Shown here: positions 2,213-57,370 of the stretch, piece by piece
How positions within the stretch are numbered: position 1 is the first letter of the stretch
Layout of the letters: the number at the start of each line of letters is the position of its first letter
Assembly: GCA_029706075.1 (NCBI GenBank)
Contig: JAINUG010000132.1
Location: 2,366,001 to 2,430,000, forward strand
From: Aldrovandia affinis
Lineage: Eukaryota; Chordata; Actinopteri; Notacanthiformes; Halosauridae
DNA: 64,000 nt
Reading direction: 5' to 3'
Notes under the pieces: model-generated
The model's database searches: none
Told to the model about the DNA's origin: nothing
What the model saw: only the letters and a program-made list of their open reading frames with translations
Program-made: the position numbers and the translations under genes

Positions 2213-2316
2213 TCATAAACAAGGGCTCCTGGTTTGCAGTGTTCCAACAGAATTTTCACTGTGTGGAATAAACAAAGTAAATACTGTCAGGGTCCTAATG
2301 TCGCACTCTGTGGCAG

Positions 2317-2446
2317 GAATGATGACATCTTGACAATCATGACCAGAGTGAATCGAGAGGTGAGCGGCAAAACCTTTGGGAGGTTCAAGCAGATGGCAGA
2401 ACCCAGGTACACGCTAACCAAGAAGGTGATACTGTCCGTGGACTGA
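2317..2446 (+). pseudogene. Orphan last exon of casp8 (p10 subunit)
   Basis: A 130-base exon with an intact AG acceptor at 2315-2316 encodes the C-terminal caspase p10 segment (NDDILTIMTRVNREVSGKT... ending VILSVD and stop). It matches, at identical length and phase, the last exon of the casp8 gene at 52341-52212. The other nine casp8 exons are absent from this arm because the duplication breaks off about 100 bases upstream. It differs in protein by Ala versus Pro in KQMxEPRYTL. On its own it cannot encode a caspase. Confidence 0.9.
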
Positions 2447-4260
2447 GAGAAGGCATGCCACCCCTCCCGGCCACCAGGGACACAATGCTCCCTTCTGCAG
2501 CAGCTCAGAGACACTCCTACACTGCTGCCATTTGACCAAAGGAAGAAAGTGCTTTATCGATCACGCGATCGGTGGTTTTAGTTGTGCTCCCTGCAGTACT
2601 CCCCCAAAGTGAATGTGTTTATGTATGTATTGTGATGCCGTCCTGGGCTGTGTGATTGACAGCCATTAGGTTCCCTGGAAATGGCTGGCTCATAGAACTG
2701 CATTTCAGGATGGTTGCCCAATTGAAAATGGCAGTACCCTGTGAAAACCACACTAGCATGTGAGCCAAGCAGTTACTCCATCTGAGGTCCTATCAGTGGC
2801 CCTGTTCACATTGCACTTTTTCAAAACATTTTAACATCTTTAACAACGTTTGTGCTCCGTGTGCACAGACTTGTTGCCATGTGGACACATTAATGTCTTA
2901 ATATCCATTTTCTCTGATAATATATCATTTGAATATATTAATTTGAATATATAATTCATTCAGTTATTCATCCCATAATGTTGGTTGCCGGTAGACCATA
3001 GATAGATGTTCTACTAATTATTTGGAAAGTGCTTTGCAATCACAGTAGCGACCATAATTGGGTAGCTACTACTAACAGAAGACATCCATTTAGACTCTTC
3101 TGCTTCTCCACCAATCTGGTAACAAGACCCCAGCAGCATTGAAACCAGTCTGCGGGAAAATATTTAAACCTTTCGCTTAATGATGAAGAGTGGGGCAACA
3201 TTTGTAAGAACTCAAGGAAACTATCAAGGGATATTCAACCATGACTTATTCAAAATAAAAAAATAAAATAAAAATGAATCCATCTAGGCTGCATAAATAA
3301 CAGACTGGGTTTGAAAGAATCTGCAGACTGCTGGGTGTGTTGGGATGGGGAGGAGTCTTCGTCATGCTCTATGGTCTGGCCCCACAATTCAGGAGTTTTG
3401 GTGTAGGGTCCATGACTATATTTTGGAAATTAGTTTAGGATTTTTAGTTTAACCTGATCTTTTTTATTTGACTAAATGATCACAGAAGAGATTGACATCT
3501 GAGAATAAGTCTGACTACACTCCCATTCATCCACCATGATCCAACGCCTCTGTGACTACTTTACACCACAGTGAAATCACAAGTTAAATATAGTTTCCAT
3601 TAGTGTGAACTTAAGTGATTTTAAAATGTTGAATTCCTGTCTAAATGTGCGGTAGGGCAACATACGGAAAAGTTGTAATTCATAAACTGCATTAAACTGC
3701 TTGTAGCGCTCCAAGTTAAACTCACTGAGACATCCTAATGGAAACATAGCTACTGTGTGAAATTGATTCATTCTGTTTGCACTGACACAGCAGGTAATTG
3801 TGGAAACGTTCATGGCATCTGATCAATTCCATAATGCCAGTTTGACATTTCAGCTCAGAGAAAAGGTGGAGGATACTGTTGTGAGAGCGTGGGTCGTGTG
3901 TGAAGTTTAACATAACAGATAGTTCATGAATAATATCTGAAAATGTTTAATTGATTGTCAGATATAATACTGACATTGTAACTGGACACAGAATTAATAA
4001 ATATAAATCTGGTATAATATTCAACATCAGGTTGTTTTTTTTGTGCTCTTATTTAAGAAATATAAATGTTTGAAATACCCTTTATAATAGAATCACAGTT
4101 TACATCTCATTAAAAAAATGATGATATAAAAATACTCCAAAAATGTACAGCAATCATCGGGTAAAACTGAAGCTGGTAGCTGAAGCTGTGTGAGGCTGGG
4201 CTTCTGGGGACAGAGGGGGGCTCCCTTAATGATGTGGCATGTTTAGGCTGTCCATCCGGC
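2447..4260. other. Spacer between casp8 and casp10 3' ends, arm 1
   Basis: No gene seen. It is collinear and inverted relative to 49615-52211 in the other arm. Short open frames here are not preserved as proteins between arms. It contains a small inverted-repeat element at 3592-3755. Confidence 0.7.
3592..3755. mobile_element. Small MITE-like inverted-repeat element
   Basis: The ends are ATAGTTTCCATTAG and, in reverse complement, CTATGTTTCCATTAG, about 160 bases apart. The same element occurs at about 50125-50288, so it predates the inverted duplication. Superfamily unknown. Confidence 0.5.
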
Positions 4261-7200: not shown

Positions 7201-10200
7201 CAGACATGAAGCTCCTCGGGCTCGGCCTGTCTCGCGCTCATATATGAGACTTCTGTCTTCTGGCTGACTGACCCTGCTAACACACATATATAAACATGCA
7301 TACATACAAACCGTCTATTGAGCCTGATATTACTGAATACAAGAGGCGTCTGTGTTGCAGAAGAAGAGCCAGTGGTGCTGGACTCAACATCACGCTGGTT
7401 CAACATCACCTTGGATATTTTGAGCTAAGAAAGAGGCTCCAGTGGCACCAAACAGAAACACTATCTGAATCTGACAACAAGGTTCTCCATCACTAACACT
7501 CACCGTTTTCCTCCTTAAACTGAATGATTCTTCTTCTCAAACCGGGGCAGACCGGTCTGATAACTTCCTCTAGTGTTTCAAGGTTTGTAATGCTCAACAG
7601 ATCCATCTTCTCCATTTCCAAGAGGAGATTTAGCATCGTCTGTAAACAATGAAGAACCCAGTTAACGCTTGTGATAGTGCTGCCAGTGCGCTACAATACC
7701 ACCGCAGTCCACCAGTACCTGATAGAAACAAGTGACAGCACGTGAGAGCACCTAGGTTGCAGGGAAAGAAAACCAAAGGACCACTACTGATGTCAGTGTG
7801 GGGGGTGAGATGCCTTTAAACTCATTAGCCTGGGTTAGACGATACACTCCTCATGGTTAGGGGGTGAGATGCCTGTAGACACGTGAGGCTGGGTTAGTAC
7901 CCGCCCCGTGTTTGGAGGATGAGAGAATGCCTGCCTGTACACTCACTACGTTGTCCTCCAGTTTCCTGCGGGGCAGTTTGTTTTGCAGTAGGAACTTGAT
8001 ACTCTTCAGGTCATCTGCATCGATGTTCTCTGACAGGTCGAACAGCAGCTTTCTGCCAAGGGTTGAAGCACACAAATGTTAAACTCGCACTGTAACTACT
8101 TCGTCCTACGTTCTAGGACCCAGTTCCAGATTACTGGTGCACTTTGTGATTGCCTGCCCGGCCATGATCACTAAACTATGATATACTATGAAAAAAAAGG
8201 AATAACAAACAACCACCAAAGATTTTTCATGTTGAGTTCAGTTAGCAGAACAAGGGGGTGCAGGTGTAAATAAGTTAGGTAAGGTAAATTCCACACTGAT
8301 ATCAGGAACCTTTTTTAAATTATTTTTATTATTATTTTTACACACAGAGTTGTCAATCCATGGAACAGCTTGCTAGGTCATGTAGCAGAGGCAGAGACAC
8401 TGCTGGTATTCAAGTTCAGACTTGATGCAGTGCTGGATATTCTCTAAACTACATAAATTACGAGCCTAGTTCTCGTCATTATGTATTATTATGTTCTTAT
8501 GTATTGTGGTCAATGCAAATAACTGTGCCCCTAGGTACTGCTTTAAGGTATATTTCCTTTTATTGTAGTTCTTATTTTTCAGTACCTGTACTATGATACA
8601 ATTTCCCATTTCCACCCCCGACAGGGCTCTCAGCCAGAGCTGGGCTGGCGCACCTCGGTTCCGAACCGCGACTGTGGCTTCACTTGGTCGCAGTGCATAT
8701 AGAACCATTAAGGGCTCCAGTTTGGAGAGGACGGTAGCCAAAACACGCAATTGCTAGTTTCGACCATCGCAAACGGAATATTTCTCGCCTCCACCAAGTT
8801 TGGTAGTTTGGTGGTTGTCAATAAAGGCGTTATGACCACCTCTTAACTCAAACGCAGGGAGTTACGTGCTGTTTGGTGACATTATCAATGCACACATATG
8901 AACAGATAGGGCAGACAAGTAGGGTGAACAGATGTCCTGCATTGTGTGGGACAGTCCCGCATTTTAATAAAATAATAACATAACAAATATGAACCCTGGA
9001 CAACATTATCATCACCCAGTGTCAATAAACATTGTTTCATATTTCTCTCGCTTCCTTATTTTGATTATCATTGCATGGAGTGGTTTAAAAACAACAACAA
9101 AAATCTATGTCCTGGAGTAGCCTAGTCAAAGACCACACCTCAATCCCATTGAGAGACTGTAAAGATTAGAAAATTGCTGCAGTTACAGCTGTGAGTTTGT
9201 TTGCTTGGGTAAGTCTCTATCAGCTTTGCACATCTATCCATTGCACTTTTCACATTCTTCTTTACAAAATTGCTCCAGCTACGTCAGGTTGGATGGGGAC
9301 TGTTGGTGAACAGCAATTTTCTAATCTTTACAGTCTCTCAATGGGATTGAGGTGTGGTCTTTGACTAGGCTACTCCAGGACATAGATTTTTGTTGTTGTT
9401 TTTAAACCACTCCATGCAATGATAATCAAAATAAGGAAGCGAGAGAAATATGAAACAATGTGAAAAATGCCAAAGGGGGTGAATACTTTTCATACCCACT
9501 GTACCAGAGCAGGACAAGGGTGACTTGCATGCATCATGTCCTGTTAAATATAACCAGTGGACCTCACTGAGGTAGCTATAAGGCAATAAAAGCTGATTTA
9601 GCATATAGCTAGTTGGTGACAATACTAATGTTTGCTATTTGTAGTAGCTAACGTTACATACCTTGGGTTGATTTGTGCGTAAATTTTAGCTCGCTATATA
9701 ATAAATATGTTCAGTTTCAATCAAGTTTATTTTGCCAACTATGCTTTTCAATTAATGGAAAGACCGCATTGCGTGTTTAACAAGGTAATGTTAGCTATAT
9801 GGTATTTTGCTAATTACCCATGATATTTAATTGGCATGACTTACATTACCTAATTAACTATAGCTACAGCTATTTTCACTAAATTAGCTAATGTTAGCTA
9901 ACTAGTCAAGTCAAGAGGAAACGTGATTATTGCCTACGAACTTGTAGGCTATTGAGAATAAATCAATGTCCAATAAATGTATAAACAACCCAGCAAGTTA
10001 ACTTATTACTACCTTATTAATAGTCTGTATATTCAATATGTCAAATAATAAGCTGTGGTTTTGTTCTAGCTGTTCTTATCTACTAGTTGTGTATGTGTTG
10101 TATTTGTATTTTTGATTTGTATTTTACTGAGGAGTTTTAACGCAAGTAAGCATTTCATTGTTGAAATGCATTCCCCTGTATTGTATACATATGACAAATA

Positions 10201-10787
10201 AACTTGACTCGACTTTAGTTAATGTTATCTAGTAAAATAATTAGTCTCATCTCACATTTCAACTGAACTGTGCTAACGGTAACTACTTGACACTGAAGAT
10301 TGTGAAGTTGGAGAAAGACCCTTGTTGTGTGAGATTGATACTATAGGGCACTTTGTTAGAAAATAAAGGAGATTAGAATTTGCTTACAAGGTAAGGAGAC
10401 AGCCCATAATATTTATTTTGACATGCTGCAAAATTAATATGTTAGCTTTTACCTTAATTACGGAAATTGTTTACCTATCATACCCTGTATTGTTTCTCTA
10501 TAAGAGTTGACATTTAAAGGTAAACTATTTATTTGTGAGGCTAGTATTACCAAGCGTACCAAAATGTATTTACTGTTATGGTGAATTACCTATGTTCCAA
10601 GTCTTTCATAAACTGTCAGTTTATCTCTTTAGTTGTTTCTAATTTAATTTTTTTTAAAGTACTCATTTGTTCTTGAATGAAGATTGTAGGGTTGTCTTAA
10701 ATTATATGATGTTAGGCTTTTAATATGAGGATAATGCCTGTATTTTGCAGTAGTGAGGCAGGCAGGCAGCATCCGGGGCAGTGAGTG

Positions 10788-10819
<32 letters not shown>

Positions 10820-12268
10820 CATCATCATCATCATCACCATCACCATCACCATCACCATCATCATCACCATCATCACCACCACCACCATCATCATCATCAC
10901 CACCACCATCATCACCATCATCATCATCATCACCATCATCATCATCACCATCATCACCATCATCATCATCATCATCATCATCATCACCATCACCATCACC
11001 ATCATCATCATCATGCCATCATCATCATCACCATCATCACCATCATCACCATCATCATCATCATGCCATCAGAGCAGCAGGGGCAGTGAGCAACCATATC
11101 ACCAGAGCAGCAGAGGACGATTAGTTTTGGTCGTGTTTTCGTTTAGTATTTTACCCGAAGCTTCGCCCAGTGGGGTAACAATTAGGGTAACGTGTTGGAG
11201 TTGTGTCTTTATTATTATGATGTCAGGCGTTTAATATGAGGGTAATCTCTATTTTGCAGTAGTGAGGCAGGCAGGCAGGCAGCGTCAGGGGCAGTAAGCA
11301 CACCATCATCACCATCATCACCATCGTCATCATCATAACATCATCAGAGCAGCAGGGGTTAGTCAGCATTATCACCGGAGCGTCAGAGAGGGTCAAGGTC
11401 AGATCAGCACCCCCCACCCCCAGGCCTCAGCTTCACCTGTTGTGGATCACACCAGTCGCCACTGGTATACACACAACGGATTAACTAGATATTGAAAACA
11501 CGTATATTACATCGTAAAAGGCCACCAACTATCAGTGATTGCTAACTGGCATCTGTCACTACACACTGGCAGCTGCCACTTCCTGTTGCCACAGCTGCCA
11601 CTTCCTGTTGCCACAGCTGCCACTTCCTGCTGCCACAGCTGCCACTTCCTGTTGCCACAGCTGCCACTTCCTGCTGACAGCAACCCCAAATGTAAATGGA
11701 CCAATGGAGTGGAGATGAAGCCATTGGTCTCATAATAAAAATGTGTTAAAGATTTTGTTCCTTTTTTCACTTTGTGAATTCAGTTTTCAGATAAGCGTAT
11801 AGCTAACTATATTGTCAATGTGAACGGAAAGCTAATTGCTGTTGATAAACTGAACTGTCCTTTTAAATTTGTTTTATTTTAAATGTGAAATGTTCAGGGC
11901 CTGAATCAAAGGCGCAAGGATCTGAAATCTCAGTACTACTTTTAAGCACATTGTGTGTATTCAGCGGAATGGAGAGATTATACACACACCCACCTGTAGG
12001 GGGAGACGAGGCCCGCAGAAGGCTGGCTGAAAAGGCCCAGCTGGCGGAGCAACCCACTCCGCCTGGACAGCTGCAGCAGCTCCACGAGGAGGAATGGTCG
12101 CTGCGATGTCAGATGATCAAGGTGCTGCAGATGAGTAAAGAGATCGCGGGCAGTACAGATGCAGCTCACGTCTTTGTCCAGAAGGTCCGTGCACAGAAAC
12201 ACCAACGCCTGCACATCCTCGCTGTTCAGAGCCTGCTCGACCTTCAGAAGCGTTTGCTGGAACTCCAT
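4261..12268 (-). CDS. casp10: Caspase-10-like initiator caspase, intact copy
   Basis: Initiator cysteine protease recruited through FADD to death-receptor complexes. Exons in coding order: 12268-11994, 8052-7950, 7639-7504, 7273-7188, 7001-6965, 6752-6673, 6457-6415, 6303-6217, 6053-5971, 5817-5694, 5583-5073, 4435-4261. Every junction is GT-AG and in phase, giving 579 residues. DED1 fills exon 1 and DED2 exons 2-3 (motif LKSIKFLLQNKLPRRKLEDN). Exons 4-9 encode a Ser-rich linker. Exon 10 starts p20 (RRGFCLIINNNDF). Exon 11 carries His401 in SHG and Cys444 in QACQG, plus SFRH and GTWFIQ substrate-pocket motifs. Exon 12 is p10 ([23 protein letters not shown]). The QDSIPDEADFLLGMATVP and [10 protein letters not shown] motifs fit caspase-10 better than caspase-8. 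Intron 1 (3.9 kb) holds a perfect palindrome and two satellite tracts. The first exon has an acceptor before ATG, so an untranscribed or 5'-UTR exon lies upstream. Confidence 0.9.
4560..4870 (-). mobile_element. SINE family D remnant in casp10 intron 11
   Basis: Starts with TTCTCCCAGTTTTTCTCCCC and continues like the tRNA-headed repeat at 61245-61610, but the tRNA-like head has decayed. The same insertion is at about 49070-49325 in the other casp10 copy, so it predates the duplication. Confidence 0.6.
6618..6650. repeat. (TG)n microsatellite in casp10 intron 6
   Basis: Short TG tract. The same site in the other copy has grown to a tract of over 80 bases (47384-47467, read as CA). Confidence 0.8.
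9030..9460. repeat. Perfect 150-bp fold-back palindrome in casp10 intron 1
   Basis: Arms 9030-9179 and 9311-9460 are exact reverse complements over all 150 bases by direct reading, separated by a 131-base spacer. The homologous region of the other copy (about 44765-45060) has only one arm. The spacer and second arm lie in flipped orientation relative to that copy. It lies within the transcribed intron 1. Confidence 0.93.
10785..11070. repeat. (CAT)n microsatellite in casp10 intron 1
   Basis: About 285 bases of CAT/CAC triplets, with a smaller related tract at 11300-11335. Open frames across it would be poly-His, poly-Ile or poly-Ser and are artefacts of the repeat. Absent from intron 1 of the other copy, which lacks about 2.3 kb here. 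Confidence 0.95.
11571..11685. repeat. 22-bp minisatellite in casp10 intron 1
   Basis: About five tandem copies of a 22-base unit starting GCTGCCACTTCCTG. Absent from the other copy. Confidence 0.9.
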
Positions 12269-12315
12269 CACCTGCACGTGACAGGAATGAAAACGTATGA
12301 ATTAAACGTCTAGGT

Positions 12316-12545
12316 CAGGGGTGCCCAAGTTCGATCCTGGAGATCTACTGGGTGTGCAGGCTTTTGTTCCAGCCCTTCACTAACACACCTGATTTTAACA
12401 CTCATTGCCTTGACGAGCAGTTGATTCGTGGAATCAGGTGTTAGTGAAGTGATTCATGGAATCAGGAGTGTTAACAAAAGTGAAGCGCTGGAACAAAAGC
12501 CTGCACACCCAGTAGATCTCCAGGACCGAACTTGGGCACTCCCTG
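12316..12545. mobile_element. hAT-type MITE upstream of casp10 exon 1
   Basis: Ends are CAGGGGTGCCCAAGTTCG and, in reverse complement, CAGGGAGTGCCCAAGTTCG. Perfect 8-bp target duplication GTCTAGGT at 12308-12315 and 12546-12553. The whole element is nearly one long inverted repeat. Its counterpart at 43819-44035 shows that it inserted before the duplication. Confidence 0.93.
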
Positions 12546-12926
12546 GTCTAGGTTTTTGTTGCAACCAGTGCGTTACATCAGTGATCCATTAGTTCCCCTC
12601 ATTTGAAGATGTCAATGTCTAATTGGAGATTGACAGTGCCAACTTGTATGCTAGTGCTGTACATTTACTAGGCAAAACAATTTAATTAAAACCATTTGAC
12701 CCACAGAGCGCTTGAGGTTGAAAACATCGCGATGCGTGTAAACAGCGAAAATATCTGTCACTGTAAGCGACCATAACAATATAAAGTAGCCTTTTAAAGC
12801 TAAGCATCGGTGCTGTGTTCATTTTAAATGTGGCACGTTTATCCTACCTTCCACGTACCAGCCATACCTCTGGTCCCGAGAATGCTTATGTCGGATGATA
12901 CTGTAGTTAGAATTGTACCGTTTGTA

Positions 12927-13560
12927 TTAGGTAATGGAAGGGGAGGTATAACGGCAGCTACATCTATAACTTAAACATTGTACAGTCTGCGCTTTACAAG
13001 ATGGATTTAGCACTCGCAACAGCTGCCGAAAATTGAACACGATTTGTGGAGATAATTTGCGATAAAAAAGAAATACAAATTCTGCGCCACAATCACGTGA
13101 CAATTCATGACGCATACATTTCACTTTCACTTTCCATTAGGTGACGATACCGGTAATTTATTAATTTAATAATTTATGAACTTATAAAAACCGCTTTCGG
13201 CGTCCTCGTAACAAAGGCACTGTAAACAAGTAAAAGTAAAATTATATGCAAAAAATATGCAATTTAACACGCTTTATTTTAACATGTCTGTATAAAACCA
13301 TTCGCCATTTTCTATTCCCCGTTCACACTCTCGTCGATCTCTGCGCTTTACAAGCTTGGTTTTTAGTACTCGCAACAGTTGTCGAAAATTGAACACGATT
13401 TGTGGAGATAATTCTGCGCCACAATCACGTGACAATTCATGACGCATACATTTCACTTATTAATTTGTTAATTTATAAAATCCGCTTTCGGTGTCCTCGT
13501 AACAAAGGCACTATAAACAAGTCAAGGTAAAATAGTATGCAAAGAAACTTAAATTCACTT
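12927..13560 (-). promoter_or_regulatory. casp10 promoter-side tandem repeat, arm 1
   Basis: Two diverged tandem units, about 12980-13220 and 13340-13520, each containing the motif CACGTGACAATTCATGACGC. The same unit is present several times in the other arm (36290-38079 and 42058-43450). It lies 0.7-1.3 kb upstream of the casp10 start and carries an ISRE in the first unit only. The transcription start cannot be placed by eye. Confidence 0.6.
13119..13134 (-). promoter_or_regulatory. ISRE / IRF element upstream of casp10
   Basis: On the minus strand reads GAAAGTGAAAGTGAAA, three perfect GAAA cores at the GAAANN spacing bound by IRF factors and ISGF3. It lies about 850 bases upstream of the casp10 start codon and is conserved at 37928-37943 and 43291-43306 in the other arm. 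Confidence 0.75.
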
Positions 13561-34250: not shown

Positions 34251-34283
34251 CAGTGTCAGGTTGGTTCTGTCTCTCTCCTGCAG

Positions 34284-34419: not shown

Positions 34420-34544
34420 GTAATATAACTTATCTCCAATCTCTTTGTAATAATAATCTATTATTTATCATAACCATGTCTTCACTGCAATTCTGAACAT
34501 CTAGCTAATTGTCACCACTGCCTATTTGTCCACCACTATATACC

Positions 34545-43043: not shown

Positions 43044-43099
43044 TAGTAGAGTTACGGACTTGAGTCTTTAGCTCAGCGAGCTTAATCGCTCTCTTGTCG

Positions 43100-43450
43100 C
43101 GTCGAGATCCCTCGGTTCGAAAGTCGCTGCGGGCAGAACCAACACCGTCACACAAACATGTTAAAATAAAGCAAGTTAAATTGCATATTTCTTTGCATAT
43201 TATTTTACTTTTACTTGTTTACAGTGCCTTTGTTACGAGGACACCGAAAGCGGTTTTTATAAGTTCATAAATGAATAAGTTAGGATACTGGAAAGTGAAA
43301 GTGAAATGTTTACGTCATGAATTGTCACGTGACTGGCGCAGAATTTGTATTTATTTTTTATCGCAAATGATCTCCACAAATCGTGTTCAATTTTCAGCAG
43401 CTGTTGCGAGTACTAAATCCATCTTGTAAAGCGCAGACTGTACAATGTTT
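43100..43450 (+). promoter_or_regulatory. casp10 proximal promoter-side repeat, arm 2
   Basis: Last unit of the tandem array, with the tRNA-like B box near 43115, an ISRE at 43291-43306 and CACGTGACTGGCGCAGAAT. It corresponds to arm 1 12980-13220. The sequence onward to 43800 is collinear with arm 1 12560-12980. Confidence 0.6.
43291..43306 (+). promoter_or_regulatory. ISRE / IRF element, arm 2 proximal
   Basis: GAAAGTGAAAGTGAAA, 777 bases before the casp10 start codon, matching the arm-1 element in sequence, orientation and distance. Confidence 0.75.
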
Positions 43451-43818
43451 AAGTTGTAGATGTAGCTGCCGTTATACCTCCCCTTTCCATTACCTAATTC
43501 AAACGGTACAATTCTAACTACAGTATCATCCGACATAAGCATTCTCGGGACCAGAGGTATGGCGGGTACATGGAAGGTCGGATAAACAGGCCACATTTAA
43601 AATGAACACAGCACCGATGCTTAACTTTAAAAGGCCATATTTTCGCTGTTTACACGCATCGCAATGTTTTCAACCTCAAGCGATCTGTGGGTCAAATGGT
43701 TTTAATTAAATTGTTTTGGCTAGTAAATATACAGCGCTAGCACACAAGTTGGCACTGTCAATCTCCAATCAGACATCTAAATGAGGCCGTATACTGTGTA
43801 ACGCACTATAACCTAGAC

Positions 43819-44035
43819 CAGGGGTGCCTAAGTTCGGCCCTGGAGATCTACTGGGTGTGCAGGCTTTTGTTCCAGCCCTTCACTAACACACCTGATTCCA
43901 TTAATCACTTCACTAACACACCTGATTCCACTGCTCGTCAAGGCAATGAATGTTCAAATCAGGTGTGTTAGTGAAGGGCTGGAACAAAAGCCTGCACACC
44001 CAGTAGATCTCCAGGATCGAACTTGGGCACCCCTG
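43819..44035. mobile_element. hAT-type MITE upstream of casp10, arm 2
   Basis: Same element as 12316-12545. Flanks ACCTAGAC and ACCGAGAC, a target duplication with one later change. Ends 36 bases before the splice acceptor of coding exon 1. Confidence 0.9.
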
Positions 44036-47000
44036 ACCGAGACGTTTAATTCATACGTTTTCATTCCTGTCACATGCAGGTGATGGAGTTCCAGCAAACG
44101 CTTCTGAAGGTCGACCAGGCTCTGAACAGCGAGGATGTGCAGGCGTTGGTGTTTCTGTGCGCGGACCTTCTGGACAAAGACGTGAGCTGTATCTCTACTG
44201 CATGCGATCTCTTTACTCATCTGCAGCAGCATGATCTTCTGACATCGCAGCGACCATTCCTCCTCGTGGAGCTGCTGCAGCTGTCCAGGCGGAGTGGGTT
44301 GCTCCGCCAGCTGGACCTTTTCAGCCAGCCTTCTGTGGGCCTCGTCTCCCCCTACAGGTGGGTGTGTGTATAATCTCTCCATTCCGCTGAATACACGCAA
44401 TGTGCTTTGTTTTTTCCCCCTTAAAAGTAGTACCGAGATTTCAGATCCTTGCGCCTTTGATTCAGGCCCTGAACATTTAATATTTTAAAACAAAGAAAAA
44501 GGACAGTTCAGTTTATCAACAGCAATTCGCTTTCCGTTCATATTGACAATATAGTTAGCTATATTAGCTATATGTATTCACCCCCTTTGGCATTTTTCAC
44601 ATTCTTACTTCATGGAATCAAAATGTAGCCTATTTAATTGGAATTTCTTGCCACTGATCAACACGAAATACTTAATTAATAAAAAATAAAAAACAGACAA
44701 TAATTGATTCTGTAAGTATTTACCCTCCCTTGACTTAATACTTCATAGAAGCACCTTTAAAGAGCTGCAGTTACAGCTGTGAGTTTGTTTGCTTGGGTAA
44801 GTCTCTACCAGCTTTGCACATCTAGCCATTTCACTTTTCACATTCTTCTTTACAAAATTGCTCCAGCTACGTCAGGTTGGATGGGGACTGTTGGTGAACA
44901 GCAATTTTCTAATCTTTACAGTCTCTCAATGGGATTGAGGTGTGGTCTTTGACTAGGCTACTCCAGGACATAGATATGTATTTTTTTAAACCACTCCATG
45001 CAATGATAATCAAAATAAGGAAGCAAGAGAAATCTTAAACAATGTTTATTGACACTGGGTGATGATAATGTTGTCCAGGGTTCATATTTGTTATGTTATT
45101 TTATTAAAATGCGGGACTGTCCCACACAATGCAGGACATCTGTTCACCCTACTTGTCTGCCCTATCTGTTCATATGTGTGCATTGATAATGTCACCAAAC
45201 AGCACGTAACTCCCTGTGTCTGAGTTAAGAGGTGGTCAAAACGCCTTTATCGACAACCACCTAACTACCAAACTTGGCGGAGGCGAGAAATATTCCGTTT
45301 GCGATGGTCAAAACTAGCAATTGCGTGTTTTGGCTACCGTCCTCTCCAAACTGGAGCCCTTAATGGTTCTATATGCACTGCGAACCAGTGACGCCACAGT
45401 CACGGTTCAAAACCGAGGTGCGCCAGCTGGCTCTGGCTGAGAGCCCTGTCGGGGGTGGAAATGGGAAATTGTATCATAGTACAGGTACTGAAAAATAAGA
45501 ACTACAATAAAATACCTTAAAGCAGTACCTAGGGGCACAGTTATCTGCATTGACCACAATACATAAGAAAATAATAATACATAATGATGAGAACTAGGCT
45601 CGTAATTTATGTAGTTTAGAGAATATCCAGCACTGCATCAAGTCTGAACTTGAATACCAGCAGTGTCTCTGCCTCTGCTACATGACCTAGCAAGCTGTTC
45701 ATGGATTGACAACTCTGTGTAAAAAAAAAAATAGTTCCTGATATCAGTGTGGAATTTACCTTACCTAACTCATTTACACCTGCGCCCCCTTGTTCTGCTA
45801 ACTGAACTCAACATGAAAAATCTTTGGTAGTTGTTTGTTATTCCTTTTTTTTTTTCATAGTATATCATAGTTTAGTGACAATCACAAAGTGCACCAGTAA
45901 TCTGGAACTGGCTCCTAGAACGTAGGACGAAGTAGTTACAGTGTGAGTTTAACATTTGTGTGCTTCAACCCCTGACAGAAAGCTGCTGTTCAACCTGTCA
46001 GAGAACATCGATGCAGATGACCTGAAGAGTATCAAGTTCCTACTGCAAAACAAACTGCCCCGCAGGAAACTGGAGGACAACGTAGTGAGTGTACAGGCAG
46101 GCATCCTCTCATCCTCCAAACACGGGGCGGGTACTAACCCAGCCTCACGTGTCTACAGGCATCTCACCCCCTAACCATGAGGAGTGTATCGTCTAACCCA
46201 GGCTAATGAGTTTAAAGGCATCTCACCCCCCACACTGACATCAGTAGTGGTCCTTTGGTTTTCTTTCCCTGCAACCTAGGTGCTCTCACGTGCTGTCACT
46301 TGTTTCTATCAGGTACTGGTGGACTGCGGTGGTATTGTAGCGCACTGGCAGCACTATCACAAGCGTTAACTGGGTTCTTCATTGTTTACAGACGATGCTA
46401 AATCTCCTCTTGGAAATGGAGAAGATGGATCTGTTGAGCATTACAAACCTTGAAACACTAGAGGAAGTTATCAAACCAGTCTGCCCCAGTTTGAGAAGAA
46501 GAATCATTCAGTTTAAGGAGGAAAACGGTGAGTGTTAGTGATGGAGAACCTTGTTGTCAGATTCGGATAGTGTTTCTGTTTGGTGCCACTGGAGCCTCTT
46601 TCTTAGCTCAAAATCTCCAAGGTGATGTTGAACCAGCGTGATGTTGAGTCCAGCACCACTGGCTCTTCTTCTGCAACACAGACGCCTCTTGTATTCAGTA
46701 ATATCAGGCTCAATAGACGGTTTGTATGTATGCATGTTTATAAATGTGTGTGTTAGCAGGGTCAGTCAGCCAGAAGACAGAAGTCTCATATATGAGCGCG
46801 AGACAGGCCGACCCCGAGGAGCTTCATGTCTGTCCTGGAGTCCAGGTGCGGCAAAGTGTCTGTCTCTGTTTCCTCTCCGCTCACCTCTGTCTCCCGTTGG
46901 CTACTGTTGTCTACTGTAGTACTGGATATAAAGTTAAGATGATGCTGCGGCCTCTGAAATCTCTGTGCTTCCGTTGTTCTGAGACATATTTATTATTCTT

Positions 47001-47382
47001 TGTTGTTTCATTTTGCTTTTATTTCACTGTGTTCTTCTGCAGGCTTCTACGTCAAATAACAACAGACCTGCCACTCTAGGTATGTTTAACTCTTCTCTTC
47101 TATTTCTCCTTATTTGATCTGTGGAACAAGGGAAGGCAGGGTTGGCACAGTGTTTGGTTATGCATACACTTCTGAGATTCACCATTTTTGGCGGTTTTAA
47201 TCTAAAAACCTCAGTCGTTAAAACAGCAAATCTCACCTCTCGGGTTGGTTATCCGGCCGGTCTCTGAATGTTTTGTTTCTGCTCCTTGTAGGAAGTCTTT
47301 CGGAGAATGTGATTTGGAATGACTGGAGGCAGGAGTCATCGGGGTCATCACATTCACAAGCCTCATGTGAGGTCAGTCCTTG

Positions 47383-47383
<1 letters not shown>

Positions 47384-47467
<84 letters not shown>
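47384..47467. repeat. (CA)n microsatellite in casp10 intron 6
   Basis: Over 80 bases of CA with one TACA interruption, starting 12 bases after the exon 6 donor. Confidence 0.95.
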
Positions 47468-49069
47468 CACTGTGCTGTAGAGAAATACATTCTTCCTTAT
47501 GTACTGGTCAGCGACCTGTGATCTGTGTCTACCTCTGAATATCAATAAAGAGTGAAGCACTGCCTTCCTCTTCCTCACATCCAATCACATTTGAGCTGGA
47601 CACTCGTGTCTCCCTCAGGGCCCCTGTGCGCTCTCCTCTGAACCCTATGCTCCATCTCTAGGTGAGTTGATCTTTTCCCCTGACTTGCACTGTACCCATA
47701 CAGAATAAGTGTTGTTTTGTGATAGTCTGTCGCAGCCTGGTGATCTTACCGGCACCATGGGATGTGTTGCAGTGGCTGTGGATGCCAGGGCAGAGGGACA
47801 GTCGCTCGATCTGAGCCAGCCTAGCAGCAGTGGGACAACAGATGCGACCTTCTCCTCAGGTCAGATAATGACCAGCACCCACTCCTTTACCAACACAGCC
47901 CACTGTTTCCTGTTCTCCTGTGTCTTTTCCTTTGAGTCCGATTCCATGTCTGCTGTCCCTTTCTCTCTCCTCTGTCCATCCACAATACACTACCCTCATC
48001 TGCTGTTTCTTTTTTATTTCAGAGCAAAGGCGCCAGGTGTCTCTCACCTCTCCACGTGAGGAGAAGAATATTAGCGCTGCAAATCCTGTTCAAGGGAAAA
48101 AAAGGTAAGAAACTATCACGCTTTCTCCTATGCACACACCGTACATTACTTTATTCGAAACTCTTAATCAAAATAGAAGAATTTCACATAATACCACAAG
48201 AACAAATCACCGTTTCTGTTGGTTGATCATGTGTGCTTTATGTGTTGTCTTCTGTAGGAACTAGAGGTGTATGAGATGAAAGATGACAGGAGGAGAGGAT
48301 TTTGTTTGATCATCAACAACAATGACTTCTCAAATTCACAAAAAGAATTGAAAAACCGTGAGGGAACAGACGTAGATGCGAGTAAGTGCAAGTAAACTAT
48401 TGACATAAATCCAACGATGGCTCATAAAATAGGACTCTTCTGTTTTTTTTTTTTATCCATGATAAACATTTTTTCCCCCTCTGTTCCCAGAAAGCTTAGT
48501 GGACGTATTTGAGTGGCTGGGCTTTGAGACGCAGACGGAGCGAGACTGCAGCGAGCAGCGCATGCGCTCGCTGCTAGAGGATCTCAGTAAGAAAGACCAC
48601 ACCGCTATGGACTGCCTGGTGTGCTGCGTCCTGAGTCACGGCAAGCGCGGGGCGGTGTACGGGGTAGACGGGGGCGAGTTGCCTCTCAGGGACCTCACGA
48701 GGCCCTTCTCAGGGGTCCGCTGTGCCACCCTGCGGGAGAAGCCCAAACTCTTCTTCATCCAGGCGTGCCGGGGCTTGAAGGAACAGCTGGCAGTGCCCAT
48801 CGAGTCCGACAGCCCCGAGTCTGGCTCCGCCCAGGACTACCTCACCACCGACGCGTTCGTGCCCCAAGACTCCATCCCCGACGAGGCCGACTTCCTGCTG
48901 GGCATGGCCACCGTGCCAGACTTTGCCTCCTTCAGACACAGGAAGGAGGGCACCTGGTTCATTCAGTCTCTGTGTGAGAACCTCGTGCTGCTGGTGCCCA
49001 GGTGAGTAAGCCATTAACACTCTGCATATATTCTAGCAGAAACATATTGGTAATTAATATTGACATTAA

Positions 49070-49325
49070 TATGAAACATGGCTGTACATTCCCACGGGAG
49101 CGGGGAGGGTGGTTGACAAGAACTTGCTGTGAAGCACATAAAGGTGTCTCCAGAAAGGGGGTCGGTGAGTTCCATCTCGAAGGAGGTGGATTATTGCCGG
49201 CCTCGGAGAGTAGCTTGCCCCGTAGAGATGGGCAGCGAGTTCGTTAATCAAAATAAAGAGGGTCTAATTGGCTATCAAATTGGGGAGAAAAACAGAGAAA
49301 TCAGAAAAAGTTTATTTTAAAAAGA
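49070..49325 (+). mobile_element. SINE family D remnant, casp10 intron 11, arm 2
   Basis: Inverted partner of 4560-4870. Confidence 0.6.
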
Positions 49326-49614
49326 AAAAGAATAAAAATCTGGTTAATCTGAGGTTAATTCATGGAACATGCACCACACGTTTAAGTTTGGTCTGATCCA
49401 TTCACACTCATTTTGTATTCTCTATATTTCTTGGGACAGAGAGCATGACCTGCTCTCCATCCTGATCAGGGTCAATGATGATGTCAGCCGTAAGACAGAT
49501 AAATACGGCACCAAGAAGCAGATGCCTCAGCCTGCGTTCTCACTTCGGAAGAAGGTCGTCTTCCCAGTGCCACAGAGGCCACCGCCCAAAATAAAGGCCC
49601 AAGCCTCAACATGA

Positions 49615-52211
49615 GCCGGATGGACAGCCTAAACATGCCACATCATTAAGGGAGCCCCCCTCTGTCCCCAGAAGCCCAGCCTCACACAGCTTCAGCTACC
49701 AGCTTCAGTTTTACACGATGATTGCTGTACATCTTTGGAGTATTTTTATATAATAATTTTTTTAATGAGATGTAAACTGTGATTATATTATAAAGGGTAT
49801 TTCAAACATTTATATTTCTTAAGCAAGAGCACAAAAAAACAACCTGATGTTATTATACCAGATTTATATTTATTAATTCTGTGTCCAGTTACAATGTCAG
49901 TATTATATCTGACAATCAATTAAACATTTTCAGATATTATTCATGAACTGTCTGTTATGTTAAACTTCACACACGACCCACGCTCTCACTACAGTATCCT
50001 CCACCATTTTCTCTGAGCTGAAATGTCAAACTGGCATTATGGAATTGATCAGATGCCATGAACGTTTCCACAATTACCTGCTGTGTCAGTGCAAACAGAA
50101 TGAATCAATTTCACACAGTAGCTATGTTTCCATTAGGATGTCTCAGTGAGTTTAACTTGGAGCGCTACAAGCAGTTTAATGCAGTTTATGAATTACAACT
50201 TTTCCGTATGTTGCCCTACCGCACATTTAGACAGGAATTCAACATTTTAAAATCACTTAAGTTCACACTAATGGAAACTATATTTAGCTTGTGATTTCAC
50301 TGTGGTGTAAAGTAGTCACAGAGGCGTTGGATCATGGTGGATGAATGGGAGTGTATACAGACTTCTTCTCAGATGTAAATCTCTTCTGTGATCATTTAGT
50401 CAAACAAAAAAGATCAGGTTAAACTAAAAATCCTAAACTAATTTCCAAAATATAGTCATGGACCCTACACCAAAACTCCTGAATTGTGGGGCCAGACCAT
50501 AGAGCATGACGAAGACTCCTCCCCATCCCAACACACCCAGCAGTCTGCAGATTCTTTCAAACCCAGTCTGTGCAGCCTAGATGGATTCATTTTTATTTTA
50601 TTTTTTATTTTGAATAAGTCATGGTTGAATATCCCTTGATAGTTTCCTTGAGTTCTTACAAATGTTGCCCCACTCTTCATCATTAAGCGAAAGGTTCTTT
50701 TCCCGCAGACTGCTTTCAATGCTGCTGGGGTCTTGTTACCAGATTGGTGGAGAAGCATATACTAACATTGTGACGGCCTTTCCCATAAATGTCTAAAATG
50801 AGTGGCATACTTTTACAAAAGTTATTTATGATCGAACACTTAGGAGAGCACATTCTCTTAGTTGTTTAAGCAATAACAAACATGTTAATTTTATGATATG
50901 AACATAACCTAAAGCTAACTAACTCATTCCCCACCATATAACATAAAATAATTAGTAAATAGGCTAATTCCACATACTGTAGCTTACAATGTATTTTAAT
51001 TAAAATCACAAGATAACATTTCACATTTCAATGCTTGACTTGACTTGAGTCATCATTCACCCAACCATTGCTAATGTACTCAGCTATCAAGCTAAGCTCA
51101 CCACGCATCAATACATTGCATTACAATACAAGCATGAATTAAACGGTTGTGTATAGCCTGCATTTTACTTTTAAACTTCTTATGCCCTTTCATTAGGTCT
51201 ATAGGCTGTAGCACCATCATGGATTTCATTTAAGGTGCAAATTGCTGTTAGCACCAATCCGAAGCGAAGGGCTCACATTCCACACAAAAAGGATACTAGT
51301 TAAGGTTCACTGTTCACACTTGGGTTTCCAGACGATTGTACGACGCATTTGGCACAACAATTATGATAAAACGGACACGCGGCATACCAAAACTACACCA
51401 AGGTATTGCATGAGGTAGTGGACAATGCTTCTTAGAGTGGTGTGAGTTTGTGTGCGCTCCACAAGGTTACACATTTTACGTGGGTAATGGTGAGGGAAAG
51501 TGAGATACTCAACTGCTGCTTCACGCTCTACTGAGGCAGCATTTGTTGCTAGGGTCAGAAGAGTCAAAATGGATGTCTTCTGTTAGTAGTAGCTACCCAA
51601 TTATGGTCGCTACTGTGATTGCAAAGCATTTTCCAAATAATTAGTAGAACATCTATCTATGGTCTACCGGCAACCAACATTATGGGATGAATAACTGAAT
51701 GAATTATATATTCAAATTATTATATTCAAATGATATATTATCAGAGAAAATGGATATTAAGACATTAATGTGTCCACATGGCAACAAGTCTGTGCACACG
51801 GAGCACAAACGTTGTTAAAGATGTTAAAATGTTTTGAAAAAGTGCAATGTGAACAGGGCCACTGATAGGACCTCAGATGGAGTAACTGCTTGGCTCACAT
51901 GCTAGTGTGGTTTTCACAGGGTACTGCCATTTTCAATTGGGCAACCATCCTGAAATGCAGTTCTATGAGCCAGCCATTTCCAGGGAACCGAATGGCTGTC
52001 AATCACACAGCCCAGGAGGGCATCACAATACATACATAAACACATTCACTTTGGGGGAGTACTGCAGGGAGCACAACTAAAACCACTGATCGCGTGATCG
52101 ATAAAGCAGTTTCTTCCTTTGGTCAAATGGCAGCAGTGTAGGAGTGTCTCTGAGCTGCTGCAGAAGGGAGCATTGTGTCCCTGGTGGCCGGTAGGGGTGG
52201 CATGCTGTCTC
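49615..52211. other. Spacer between casp10 and casp8 3' ends, arm 2
   Basis: Convergent 3' ends of casp10 (+) and casp8 (-). No gene seen. About 800 bases longer than the arm-1 equivalent, the extra part being near 50760-51580. It includes the MITE-like element at about 50125-50288. Confidence 0.65.
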
Positions 52212-54787
52212 TCAGTCCACGGACAGTATCACCTTCTTGGTTAGCGTGTACCTGGGTTCTGGCATCTGCTTGAACCTCCCAAAGGTTTTGCCGCTCACCT
52301 CTCGATTCACTCTGGTCATGATTGTCAAGATGTCATCATTCCTGCCACAGAGTGCGACATTAGGACCCTGACAGTATTCACTTTGTTTATTCCACACAGT
52401 GAAAATGCTGTTGGAACACTGCAAAGGCTGGCAGTGTAGTGTAATGGTTAGGGAGCTGAGCTTGTGACATGAGGTTGCTGGTTCAATTCCCAGGTGGGGC
52501 ACTGCTGTTGTACCCTTGAGCTAAAGGTACTTAACCTGAATTGCTTCAGTAAAATATCCAGCTGTATAAATGGACTGTATGTACAGAAATGTAAACTGTG
52601 TAAGTCGCTCTGGTTAAGAGCGTCTGCTAAATGCCTTAAATGTAAATGTATGAATGAATTGCCTTTTCACAGTAATCAGCCTGCATGAATAAGAGAGATT
52701 CCTGGCCCTCCCTCCCTACCCACCCACTCACCTGGGACAGCCTGACTCCAACTGGCTACAGAGCTCCTGGATGAAGGGGGAGCCTGTGCGGGGGTGCCGA
52801 TAGCACTTGTGACGCTCCACGGTGGCCATCCCCAGCAGGAAGTCGGAGTCGTTGGGGATGGTGCCCGCCTCCCCCGGCCCAGCGTCCGTGTCGTAGTCAG
52901 GCCCTCCCCCGTCGGCCCCTCCCCCGTCGGCTTGGTACTCGTCAGGGTCCAGCACCTGACACGCCTGGATGAAGAACAGCTTGGGCCTCCCGGCCAGCGA
53001 GGGGCAGCAGCTGCTGGTGAAGGGCTGGGTGAGCTGACGGACGGAGGCCAGCTCCCCGTCCGTGGCGTACACGTGGCCCTTCTTCCCGTGGGAGAGCACG
53101 CAGCACACGAAGGCGTCCAGGCCGCCGTGCGTCTTCGCGCCAAACTCCTCCACCAACCCCAGCAGCTCCGCCCCGCTCAGGTTGCGTCGGTGATGCACGA
53201 CGAAATGCAGCCGGGAGAAAACCTTGTCAAGGGTGTCTACAGGACGGAGGGAGAAAGAGGGAGGGAGGGAGGGAGAGAGAGAGGAAGAGAGAGGGAGGGA
53301 GGGAGGGAGAGAGAGAGGGAGGGAGGGAGAAAGAGAGAGGGAAGGAGGGAGAGAGAGAGGGAGGGAGGGAGAAAGAGGGAGGGAGGGAGAGAGGGAGAAA
53401 GAGGGAGGGAGAAAGAGGGAGGGAGGGAGGGAGGGAGGGCGGGATAAAGAGAGAGGGAAGGAGGGAGAAAGAGAGAGAGAGGGAAGGAGGGAGAAAAGAG
53501 AGAGAGGAAGAGAGGGAGAGAGGGAGGGAGGAAGAAAGAGGGAGGGAGAGAGGGAGAAAGAAGGAGATTGAGAAAGAGGGAGGGAAGGAGGGAGGAAGAA
53601 GAGAGAGAGAGGGAGGGAGGGAGGGAGGGAGGGAGGGAGGAGGAGGAGGGGTGGGTCAGAGTAACATTGTCTCTGTGGCAGGGAAATTATGCTGAGTACT
53701 GAACGCTAGAGACACAGGCCTCACCTGCATCTACGTCCGTCCCTTCCCGGTCGTCCAGGCCCAGCTCTTTATTCGTCCTGGCCTCTTCAAAGTTGTGGTT
53801 GTTTATGATGACACAGTGCCCACGCGGCCGGTGGCTCATGTCATAAGCCTGTCGTGTTGAAAGATCAGCAAAGGATTCACCGAAACACCTGGGAATGCTG
53901 AATTCATATTCACTGCCTCATTTCAGCTTAAATACTCACAATTCACACAATTTCCATTGTGCTGTTTTGATGATTGAATTTAAAGGTGATAAATAAATAA
54001 TTATTTGAGTATTATCATTTTTGAGTATTATCAAGGTCTACTTACCTCCTCGTGTTCGGATTCTGGCCCAGTGTCCACAGATAAATGACTCTCCACAGGC
54101 GTACCTAAAAGTTAAATCGAAATAGTGTCTGGGGAATAGCTGGGGAAGTTAGGTGGAGTAGATGAAAGACTACACATGGCAAACCAGTGAGAGAGTGCAC
54201 ATGTGCAGCAGGTGAGAGAATAGGTTCCAGGAAATAGGTGAGGACAGATCTGTCTGTGGAACAGGTGGTTGAATGCCGCAGCGTGCTTGTTCTTGTGTAC
54301 GGTTTCATACATATTCAGGTTCAGTTTGCTATTGCGACAGGACGTGTACGGTTCAAACGGACAGTGAGAAAAACTTACAGCTGGGGCTGGATTCTTCTAT
54401 AGATAGACTCTGGGTCTGGTTTAGGGAACTGGGCTGCTTGGGACAGATTAGGACATGAAAGTAAATCAAACAGTGCAATAGTCCATCATGAACATAACTC
54501 AATCATGAAAACACATTGTTAATTGAATTCATAAATAATTTAACTGAGCTACAGTCAAATCTTGCCTGCAATAGTCAAGACTAAATTAACGGAATAAATG
54601 TATGAACTTTGTCCCGTGGGTTATAGAACTCACCGGTCTGCCATCTTCAGGGACAGACAGGCTGGGGGGTGTGTCTGTGTAGCTGTGTACAGATGAGTCT
54701 TGGGTTGGGACTGAATTACGCCTCCCTGCTGGAAAGAGCAGGTACAGAATGAGGTACAGACACAGGAGTAGAGTGGGTGTCAGTGTA

Positions 54788-54822
<35 letters not shown>

Positions 54823-57370
54823 GGGGGTACTGTTTCCACCAACAGCCTGGTTTTCCCCTCACCTGCCCTCTGTGCTGCAAACGTCCGCACTGTCATGGCC
54901 AGTCGCTTGTCACATTTATCACACACTCGCTCCAGCAACTCGAGAGAATCCTCACTCAGCAGCTCCTGTTTCTCCATGACCACCAGCACGTCCAGGAAAG
55001 TCTGCAGCAAAGAGGACACAAAATGCACTGCTCATGCACAATCATGCTTTAAAACTACAATTACACAGAACACGTTGTAAGTACACTATTACAACTCCAA
55101 AAAGGCTATAAAACATATTTCAATGGGGTTGAGGTCAGGGCTCTGTGCAGGCCAATCGAGTTCCTCCACACCAAACTCATCTAACCATGTCTTTATGGAC
55201 CTCGCTTTGTGCACAGGGGCACAGTCATGCTGGAACAGCAAAGGGCCTTCCCCAAACTGTTTCCACAAAGTTGGAAGCGCCCAATTGGCTAAGATGTCTT
55301 CGTATCCTGTAGCATTAAGAATACCCTTCACTGGAACTAAGGGGCCTATCCCAAACCCTGAGAAACAGCCCTGAACTCAATAATTAGTAGGGGTTTCCAC
55401 TGACTTTTGGTCATATAGTGTAGACTTAAAAGGATTCTCCTGAACTTTATGAAAGTCACCTGAATGCTTATTTCACCAAACACAACTATAATGGAATACT
55501 ACATTTAAGTATTCTGAATGCACAATCCTGTGTCATGTACTCATTTACTCCTCAAACCTGTTTCACAGCAATTAACGGACTCCATAAGCACCAGGAACCA
55601 CACTGATTCTGTGCGACAAACTCTGGTGCAGGACCCGGCAGGTCCCAGGTGTGCCTCAGGTGTGGCGACTCACCGCGCTGGGCTCCAGTCTGGCCCGGGG
55701 GAGTTCCAGAAAGAATTTTATAGTGCCGAGATCCTCCTCTGTCACTTCCTCATGCAGATCATACAGCATCTTCCTGAAAGGTTAAATATGTATTATATTC
55801 AATAAAACCCTGTTATGCACCCCTTGTAAAAAAAACCAACAACAAATAAACCCCCTTCCCTGCTCACCGGTAAGGAGAGATTGTGGAGGCCCTTCTGCCC
55901 TGGAGAGATTGCTCTATCTCAGCGCGGTACGGCTCCAGGAACCGTAGCAGATCCTTGCGGTGTACTGCATACAGGAGCTCTCCCACTGTGATGAAACTAT
56001 CTCCCGGCAGCCCCAGCTCATCTAGCTGCAGGAAGAGGTCCTGCCCATCACGAATGCGCTCCAGCCTTTTCTGGGGAACAAGGTCCCTGCACAGAAACTT
56101 GAGCGCAGCCACATCGCTCGAATCAAGCTCTGAGTCAATCTTATGCAGCACTTCCAAGCGATTTCCGCAATGGCCTGGTGGCAGAGGAGGTGACCATAAA
56201 CAACTGAATAAGTATTATCAGTGAGCAGCAACATCTTACACACATGCACCTCTTCTGAGCCCTGATGAACGCATGACGTACAGGTAACTGCCAACAAAAA
56301 TGGAAACACCAAAGTACAGCGTCTTAATAGGGTGTTTGGGCTGTGATGAGCCAACAAAACAGTTTCAATGCACCTTGGCATAGATTCTACATGTCTGGAA
56401 TTGGAGAGATAAAACACCATACCATTCTTCACAAGAAATTCCATCATTTGGTGTTTTGTTGATGGTGATGGAAAACACTGTCTCAGGCGCCGCTCCAGAA
56501 TCTCCCATAAGTGTTCAATTGGGTTGAGATCTGGTGACTGAGACGGCCATGGCATATGGTCGTTTCCATGCTCATTAAACCATTCAGTGACCACTCGTGC
56601 TCTGTGGATGGGGGCATTGACATCCTGGAAGAGACCACTCCCATCACTATAGAAATGCTTCTCCACAAGATGAAGGTGATCACTCAGAATGGCTTTGTAT
56701 TTGTTGTCATTTACCTTGCCCTCTAAGGGGTTGAGTGGACCTAAACCATGGAAGGAAAATTCACCCCATACCATAGCCGAGCCTGTATGATTCTATGAAT
56801 ACTGGAATCTAATTTGCTTGATCAATGAATGAGACACACCTGTTTGCTACTTTGCACACTGCACTTCTCATTTATCCAGGGGTTTCCATTTTTTTTGTTC
56901 ACTATCTGTATTTAGCACGCTAGATGCCAACCACGCCGTGCCAGCTCCAGCTGTACGTACTATATGGACACTGTAACTAAGGATAGCCCTAGCTAGTGCA
57001 GGTACTGCATGAATAGGTTAGCTAGCTAAAGAGCTAATTTGCTACGCCTGTACTTTAAAAGGTTACAAGGTACTTTTCTACTTTGGGATATTGTCACCGT
57101 CACGAACAGATAACACGGTATGAATTTATTGATAACACCGTAAAGGTACCTAACGATAGGAAGCTAATTGCTACAATGTTACTAGTAGCCTACTACTCAA
57201 CTCTGCGAAACAATGACACTAGCAACATAGTTCAAACAAAACAGACTTGGCAATCTTGGCGATAGAAAGGACAACTTTTCAATTTGCTGCTTCGAGAAAA
57301 TTAGAACCAAATAAGATCTAGATATATATATATATAAAGATTTACCTGTGGTAAAGTCCATTGCCGTCAT
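52212..57370 (-). CDS. casp8: Caspase-8-like initiator caspase
   Basis: Apical death-receptor caspase. Exons in coding order: 57370-57346, 56174-55868, 55773-55674, 55001-54863, 54728-54634, 54433-54379, 54104-54046, 53848-53725, 53236-52732, 52341-52212; all GT-AG and phase-consistent, 512 residues. Exon 1 gives MTAMDFTT. DED1 (exon 2) has the RxDL-type motif HRKDLL. DED2 spans exons 3-4. Exon 8 starts p20 (RGHCVIINNHNF). Exon 9 has His351 (SHG) and Cys394. Two unusual sites: the active-site pentapeptide reads QACQV, not QACxG, and the pocket motif reads YRHPRTGSPFIQ, with Pro where GTWYIQ/GSWYIQ has Trp. The p20-p10 linker is Gly/Asp-rich (GGGADGGGPDYD). DED1 and the p10 motif DDILTIMTRVNREVS favour casp8 over casp10. 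Introns hold two Tc1 remnants and a GGGA satellite. Confidence 0.9.
52425..52645 (+). mobile_element. SINE family A, full length
   Basis: tRNA-like head with A box TAGTGTAATGG and B box GGTTCAATTCC, body CAGCTGTATAAATGGACTG, and tail TAAGTCGCTCTGGTTAAGAG. It lies in casp8 intron 9, just upstream of the last exon. The arm-1 counterpart (2050-2212) lost its middle. Confidence 0.88.
53245..53645. repeat. (GGGA)n/(GA)n purine tract filling casp8 intron 8
   Basis: About 400 of the 488 bases of intron 8 (53237-53724) are GGGA, GAGA and GAAA units on the plus strand, so the pre-mRNA is almost pure pyrimidine. Open frames here (Arg-Glu-Gly repeats) are artefacts. Confidence 0.96.
54790..54821. repeat. 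(TG)n in casp8 intron 4
   Basis: Short TG tract followed by a run of G, 42 bases after the exon 4 donor on the gene strand. Confidence 0.9.
55085..55425 (-). mobile_element. Tc1/mariner transposase fragment in casp8 intron 3
   Basis: Minus strand reads LLFQHDCAPVHKARSIKTWL and LDWPAQSPDLNPIE, the last two acidic motifs of a Tc1 DD34E transposase. The right end (about 55390-55422) is a terminal repeat containing ACCAAAAGTCAGTGGAAACC on the minus strand. The N-terminal half is deleted. Confidence 0.88.
56281..56908 (-). mobile_element. Tc1/mariner element in casp8 intron 1
   Basis: Terminal repeats CAGGTAACTGCCAACAAAAA (left) and, in reverse complement, CAGATAGTGAACAAAAAAAA (right), with TA on both sides (56279-56280, 56909-56910). 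Minus-strand transposase remnant includes FQDVNAPIHRARVVTEWF and MPWPSQSPDLNPIEHLWEIL. 628 bases, internally deleted. Confidence 0.92.

Follow-up and report, generated by a model that had tools for sequence, protein, structure and literature searches.

Background

Two described proteins offer the nearest parallels to the gene reported here. Human caspase-8L is a DED-only product of a premature stop and is described as dominant negative (PMC11853578), and the short forms FLIP(S) and FLIP(R) are reported to pair with procaspase-8 as inactive heterodimers (PMC7586951). As for teleosts, casp8 is placed beside CARD-casp8 (casp20) and casp10 on another chromosome (PMC2779465, PMC5965869), with QACQG named as the caspase-8 active site (PMC5965869). 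According to the same two surveys, casp18 was not found in the fish databases of 2009 or in zebrafish (PMC2779465, PMC5965869). Regarding transcripts with premature stops, NMD is described as not acting on a stop within 50-55 nt of the last exon junction, and cryptic splicing or exon skipping is reported to spare some zebrafish mutant alleles from NMD (PMC5716581).

The present analysis concerns a casp10-type gene found in both arms of an inverted duplication in Aldrovandia affinis, in a window of 64,000 nucleotides (the whole stretch of DNA analysed). Ordinary pseudogenisation of duplicates can come by homopolymer slippage, and length differences between copies are to be expected at mononucleotide runs. 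Judging from the DNA, the casp10-type gene forms a family of four copies, of which the one in arm 2 is probably the parental copy, with a recent one-base slippage deletion and in an early phase of loss.

Structure of the two gene copies

Exon mapping through the arm-to-arm alignment gives 12 coding exons per arm, with an acceptor AG at all 12 exons and a donor GT at exons 1-11 in both arms. Exon lengths are equal between the arms in 11 of 12 cases. The exception is exon 9: its arm-1 version (6053-5971, minus strand) has 83 nt and its arm-2 version 82 nt, owing to a run of 8 A in arm 1 (5972-5979) versus 7 A in arm 2 (Table 1). Both the matching exon lengths and the two run lengths had been given in a preliminary description of this locus and were recovered exactly, the runs at the same coordinates.

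The arm-1 product has 580 aa and contains DED, DED, and Peptidase_C14, whereas the conceptual product of arm 2 ends with QGKKRN-stop and contains two DEDs and no protease. The premature stop is a TAG in exon 10 of 12. Its position two codons into that exon was correctly predicted earlier, and the predicted length of about 311 residues is replaced by 312 aa. The domain search also agrees with the earlier reading of the remnant as a tandem DED plus linker: DED and Peptidase_C14 occur in one frame in arm 1 and not in arm 2 as assembled. Otherwise the GT-AG splice sites and the protease exons of arm 2 are intact. What we take to be the caspase catalytic His and Cys motifs (SHG and QACxG, respectively) are present in both arms when exons 10-12 are translated. 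The arm-2 DEDs are not decayed, and their Pfam fit is slightly above that of arm 1 (129.8 and 121.3 bits, respectively). For DED1 alone the values are 63.3 bits in arm 2, 59.5 in arm 1, and 62.4 in a further copy, C, described below. Exon 11 scores almost alike against the caspase model (142.7 bits in arm 2 and 143.0 in arm 1).

Table 1. Features of the duplicated casp10-type locus, in window coordinates
Feature	Position	Strand	Remarks
Inverted-duplication arm 1	2233..13291	.	matched to 52425-43152; similarity runs on inward, broken, to about 18807
Inverted-duplication arm 2	43152..52425	.	
Arm 1 gene copy	4261..12271	-	12 coding exons, intact DED-DED-caspase, QACQG active site
Arm 2 exon 1	44080..44357	+	start ATG 44083; DED1, Pfam DED 63.3 bits
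Arm 2 exons 2 and 3	45979-46084, 46392-46527	+	DED2
Arm 2 exons 4-8	46760-46845, 47043-47079, 47292-47371, 47619-47661, 47773-47859	+	linker
Arm 2 exon 9	48023..48104	+	82 nt; 7-A run 48097-48103
Candidate alternative donor in exon 9	48034..48042	+	CAG/GTGTCT, cut after 48036; 7/9 consensus positions
Arm 2 exon 10	48258..48381	+	premature TAG 48262-48264
Arm 2 exons 11 and 12	48491-49001, 49440-49614	+	caspase domain, own frame open, QACRG active site
Neighbour DED caspase	52212..56193	-	approximate limits; convergent with arm 2
Remnant last exon of neighbour DED caspase	2318..2446	+	beside arm 1

Family assignment

Among solved structures, the best match of the arm-1 protease is caspase-8. 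The matches of the arm-2 prodomain are led by the caspase-8 prodomain, followed by cFLIP, with viral FLIPs and FADD weaker. Contig C868 carries two caspases in opposite orientation, one with a DED and one with a CARD, the latter only just above the Pfam cut-off (24.3 versus 23.9 bits). The window gene is 45-46% identical to both of them, and a second casp8-like gene adjoins it. Since the pair of casp8/CARD-casp8 type is located on C868, the window gene is tentatively named casp10, by exclusion.

The adjoining DED caspase is apparently whole, with a DED1 recognized by Pfam and an active site that reads QACQV, not QACQG. Its identity is 57% to the DED caspase on C868 (p20) and 43% to casp10 (protease domain). 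Given the reported absence of casp18 from the fish databases of 2009 and from zebrafish, and the separation of casp8 from casp10 in teleosts, this neighbour could be either a duplicate of casp8 or a casp18 that has been retained.

Origin of the inverted duplication

Beside arm 1 the neighbour DED caspase is represented by its last exon only. Because this exon alone is repeated there, synteny identifies arm 2 as the parental locus and arm 1 as derived, which reverses the order assumed in the preliminary description, where the arm-2 gene was called the second copy. At both outer ends, where similarity between the arms stops, lies a repeat that we take to be SINE-like (2040-2232 and 52425-52650), and an inverted duplication through recombination between these repeats would fit the arrangement.

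The arms differ by 1.9% in their outer part (127/6702, 2233-9179 against 44899-52425) and in their inner part by 4.2% (226/5367, 11798-18807 against 28689-44563), or by 4.4% (193/4402) without two matches off the main diagonal; the outer and inner values differ with P about 1e-13. This contrast suggests that the gene-bearing part underwent conversion later on, or that the duplication took place in two steps.

Two histone H2A-H1 pairs, at 1-2041 and 21511-23730, form inverted repeats at 97-98%, and a core histone gene at 25081-25491 is read as H3. With these genes nearby, casp10 arm 1 lies within a histone cluster. A transposase at 39824-41408 (minus strand) has a DDE_1 match and a weak, sub-cut-off match to a Tc5-type DNA-binding domain, in two overlapping frames.

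Four copies in the genome

A protein search of the whole 1.22 Gb assembly returned at least 16 matches, at least 4 of them at 93-100% and the next at 49% or less, and a genome-wide DNA search returned the same four copies (at least 4 at 94-100%). These are the two arms, on contig C358, and copies C and D on contig C1848. According to a pattern search for the A-run, arm 1 shares its 8 A with copy C, and arm 2 its 7 A with copy D, so that each contig has one run of either length in near-identical surroundings (on C1848, near 19.36 kb for copy C and near 32.32 kb for copy D). Exon 9 of copies C and D is identical save for this run, and both carry similar inserted sequence in exon 3 (15 and 18 nt).

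Exon 3 of copy C is split by an insertion of ~2.7 kb with an 8-base target repeat (C1848:14981-17705), presumably hAT-like by that repeat. Copy D is interrupted by in-frame TAGs at codon 222 and at codon 360; its exon 6 begins differently, and of its exon 12 only the first bases are left. Exon 1 gave no match for it within C1848:1-50000. As assembled, arm 1 is the sole copy that reads through, and 3 of the 4 copies carry a lesion.

The copies on C1848 lie in tandem, not inverted, and their exons differ from the arms by 3.4-4.4%. Both properties speak against C1848 being the other haplotype of the window locus, a reading that is unlikely since the neighbour caspase appears once among the at least 16 protein matches.

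Origin of the 7-A run

Across a 2.3-kb region that begins in intron 3 and ends in exon 11, quartet sites support the grouping (arm 1, arm 2),(C, D) with counts of 25:1:1 and an ultrafast bootstrap of 100. As substitutions group the arms against copies C and D, arm 2 and D probably came to the shorter run independently, D being a dead gene. A slippage hotspot at the coding A-run would be the simplest reading of this twofold origin. Possible alternatives to it would be undercalling of both runs or a conversion tract that spans some tens of bases. Gaps in intron 10, at the T-run 48443 and the C-run 48472, do align arm 2 with D and arm 1 with C. These runs, however, are broken or unlike in length, so the gaps are given little weight and read as alignment noise and not as descent, although a short tract common to arm 2 and D may exist at this place.

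The loss in exon 9 is the sole coding indel between the arms, as against 7.1 expected at the non-coding rate (P = 0.007 for at most one, with simple repeats included in that rate). So low a count suggests that through most of the period after the split, or after the latest conversion, both frames were probably maintained, and that the loss in arm 2 is recent. Between the arms, 12 pure mononucleotide runs of at least 6 were tabulated, 6 of which differ in length. With 3 of these set aside as lying within larger deletions, 3 of 9 differ, namely the exon-9 A-run (8/7), a T-run at 45845 (8/11), and a T-run at 50600 (7/6). The run at 48443, tabulated as equal, actually consists of 7 T followed by C in arm 1 and of 12 T in arm 2.

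Selection on the DED and protease exons

Over all 12 exons the arms differ by 30 replacement and 5 silent changes. The dN/dS ratio for the whole coding region is 1.62 (rough interval 0.69 to 6.0), and its excess over the neutral value is not significant (P = 0.15). A comparison of dN/dS between DED and protease exons had been proposed earlier as a way to recognize a retained DED protein; the two regions show no difference, with ratios of 1.21 for the tandem DED and 1.36 for the protease (12:3 vs 12:2, Fisher P = 1), and the linker has no silent change.

Copies C and D served as outgroups for assigning changes to branches, exons 1 and 12 being polarised by C only. The arm-2 branch has a replacement to silent count of 17:2, plus one silent site of ambiguous side (tandem DED 6:1, linker 3:0, and protease 8:1), and the arm-1 branch has 13:2 in all (6:1, 3:0, and 4:1, respectively). 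Within these small counts, which give low power, the arm-2 DEDs are not seen to be better kept than the protease (6:1 vs 8:1). Purifying selection since the split is visible on neither arm, at counts that are too low to reveal weak constraint; the branch test for arm 2 was run with 17:3 and is therefore slightly conservative. Coding substitutions between the arms are also clustered (4 adjacent pairs vs 0.7 expected, P = 0.003). As 3 of the 4 pairs fall in the arm-2 protease, at codons 448, 545, and 561, the counts for that region overstate the number of events. Polarising by human caspase-8, done by eye, was dropped because the nearer copies C and D contradict the sides it assigns, e.g., at codons 456 and 561.

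Copies C and D differ from each other by 20:18 with dN/dS of 0.32 (exons 2-11, exons 1 and 12 being absent from the D comparison). In the same exons 2-11 the arms have 15:3, which differs from the C/D count with P = 0.039, or 0.042 when the double change at codon 448 is counted once. From this contrast, constraint seems to be relaxed in both arms, or replacements seem to be favoured in both.

Fate of the arm-2 gene

In the scenario that we consider probable, one A would have been lost by slippage from the 8-A coding run of arm 2, and the loss would be tolerated because an intact duplicate exists in arm 1. From the premature stop it is 117 nt to the exon 10/11 junction and 628 nt to the last one, far outside the 50-55 nt mentioned above, so NMD is the expected fate of the arm-2 mRNA, most of which would be degraded. 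Any product that is translated would be a tandem-DED protein, in principle able to enter FADD/procaspase filaments, and no sign of selection for such a product is seen. The frameshift is the disabling lesion expected of a pseudogene, if the base call is right, and the gene would then be early in its loss. Should the arm-2 gene indeed be dying, it captures a young duplicate at its first disabling step, and the dead copy D shows the identical step at the same base. The protease exons of arm 2 are also undamaged, however, so the same picture would result from a read error or from a splicing bypass.

A base-call or consensus error would mean that arm 2 truly has 8 A and encodes a normal caspase. 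The difference is indeed a single base in a homopolymer and the only coding indel in a copy that is otherwise intact, and the occurrence of 7 A in two of the four copies, against the tree, is what repeated undercalling would likewise give. The same run, however, is read as 8 in two copies and as 7 in two others in near-identical context on C358 and C1848, and a second coding indel between the arms is lacking. The reading of 7 A in two separately assembled places makes an error less likely, and we regard it as unlikely though still to be reckoned with. Rather unlikely, too, is that an internal donor in exon 9 lets arm 2 still make a full caspase. Cutting after 48036 would remove the A-run and join exon 10 in frame, giving a DED-DED-caspase of 557 aa in both arms. 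The sequence around exons 8-10 contains 59 dinucleotides of GT or AG type when the normal sites are counted, and 5 of them reopen the frame to the protease end. Two of these are donors in exon 9; the other three are acceptors that would cut away the first 32-38 nt of exon 10. Scored by a simple count against the 9-position donor consensus, as we take it to be, the donor after 48036 reaches 7/9, equal to or above 6 of the 11 donors used by the gene, and the other donor 3/9. The normal exon-9 donor is stronger, however, at 8/9. Skipping exon 9 alone fails to rescue the arm-2 frame. Of 64 skip patterns, 3 restore it in arm 2, each of them without exons 7-9, compared with 13 that keep the frame in arm 1. 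The undamaged exon 11 of arm 2 is also consistent with a bypass, which, if real, would place the A-run in a dispensable linker segment in both arms.

The preliminary description put forward a new decoy beside an active twin. On this reading the 312-aa protein would be made and would block initiator-caspase activation at FADD, in the manner of short cFLIP or caspase-8L. The domain content fits, with two DEDs and no protease; the structure matches of the prodomain are led by caspase-8 and then cFLIP; and the arm-2 DEDs fit the domain model no worse than those of arm 1 or copy C. Apart from these domains and their undecayed state, little speaks positively for a decoy at FADD. Against it, NMD is predicted from the stop position, the DED exons are no better kept than those of the protease, the twin in arm 1 shows no purifying selection, and 7 A recur in copy D, which is separate by substitutions and clearly dead. 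As for an earlier transcript end, none of four poly(A)-type hexamers tried is present in intron 9, and intron 10 has one match, at 48391, from the tenth base of the intron. We therefore judge the decoy to be improbable, and the two alternatives that had been listed beside it, a recent pseudogene or a base-call error, fit better. If a DED-only protein were made, an inhibitor of initiator caspases could arise from a caspase by one base. Highly improbable is a wider form of this idea, in which the A-run acts as a mutational switch: repeated slippage, as in arm 2 and D, would make DED-only proteins, some alleles being kept as inhibitors, while the upstream in-frame donor still permits a caspase.

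Comparison with known systems

By title or abstract, no frameshifted or DED-only casp10 copy of fish was found among the matches listed in the literature search. The arm-2 product resembles caspase-8L as described in PMC11853578, since in both a premature stop after the DEDs leaves two DEDs and no catalytic domain. Caspase-8L, however, comes from alternative splicing of a gene that also makes the full caspase, whereas the putative arm-2 form would come from base loss in a duplicate. FLIP(S) and FLIP(R) likewise have tandem DEDs and no caspase domain, but they are splice forms of their own gene, CFLAR, FLIP(S) with a 20-residue tail (PMC7586951). In contrast, arm 2 belongs to a caspase gene, retains about 140 linker residues, and has an NMD-prone stop.

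The gene agrees with teleost casp10 as outlined in PMC5965869 and PMC2779465, having two DEDs and a caspase domain and lying away from the casp8/casp20 pair. The table of PMC5965869 has one casp10 for zebrafish, whereas four copies are present here, three of them with a lesion. Pseudogenisation of duplicate genes by homopolymer slippage shows no clear difference from the arm-2 case and shares with it a one-base loss from a run, an intact copy, and other copies that are further decayed.
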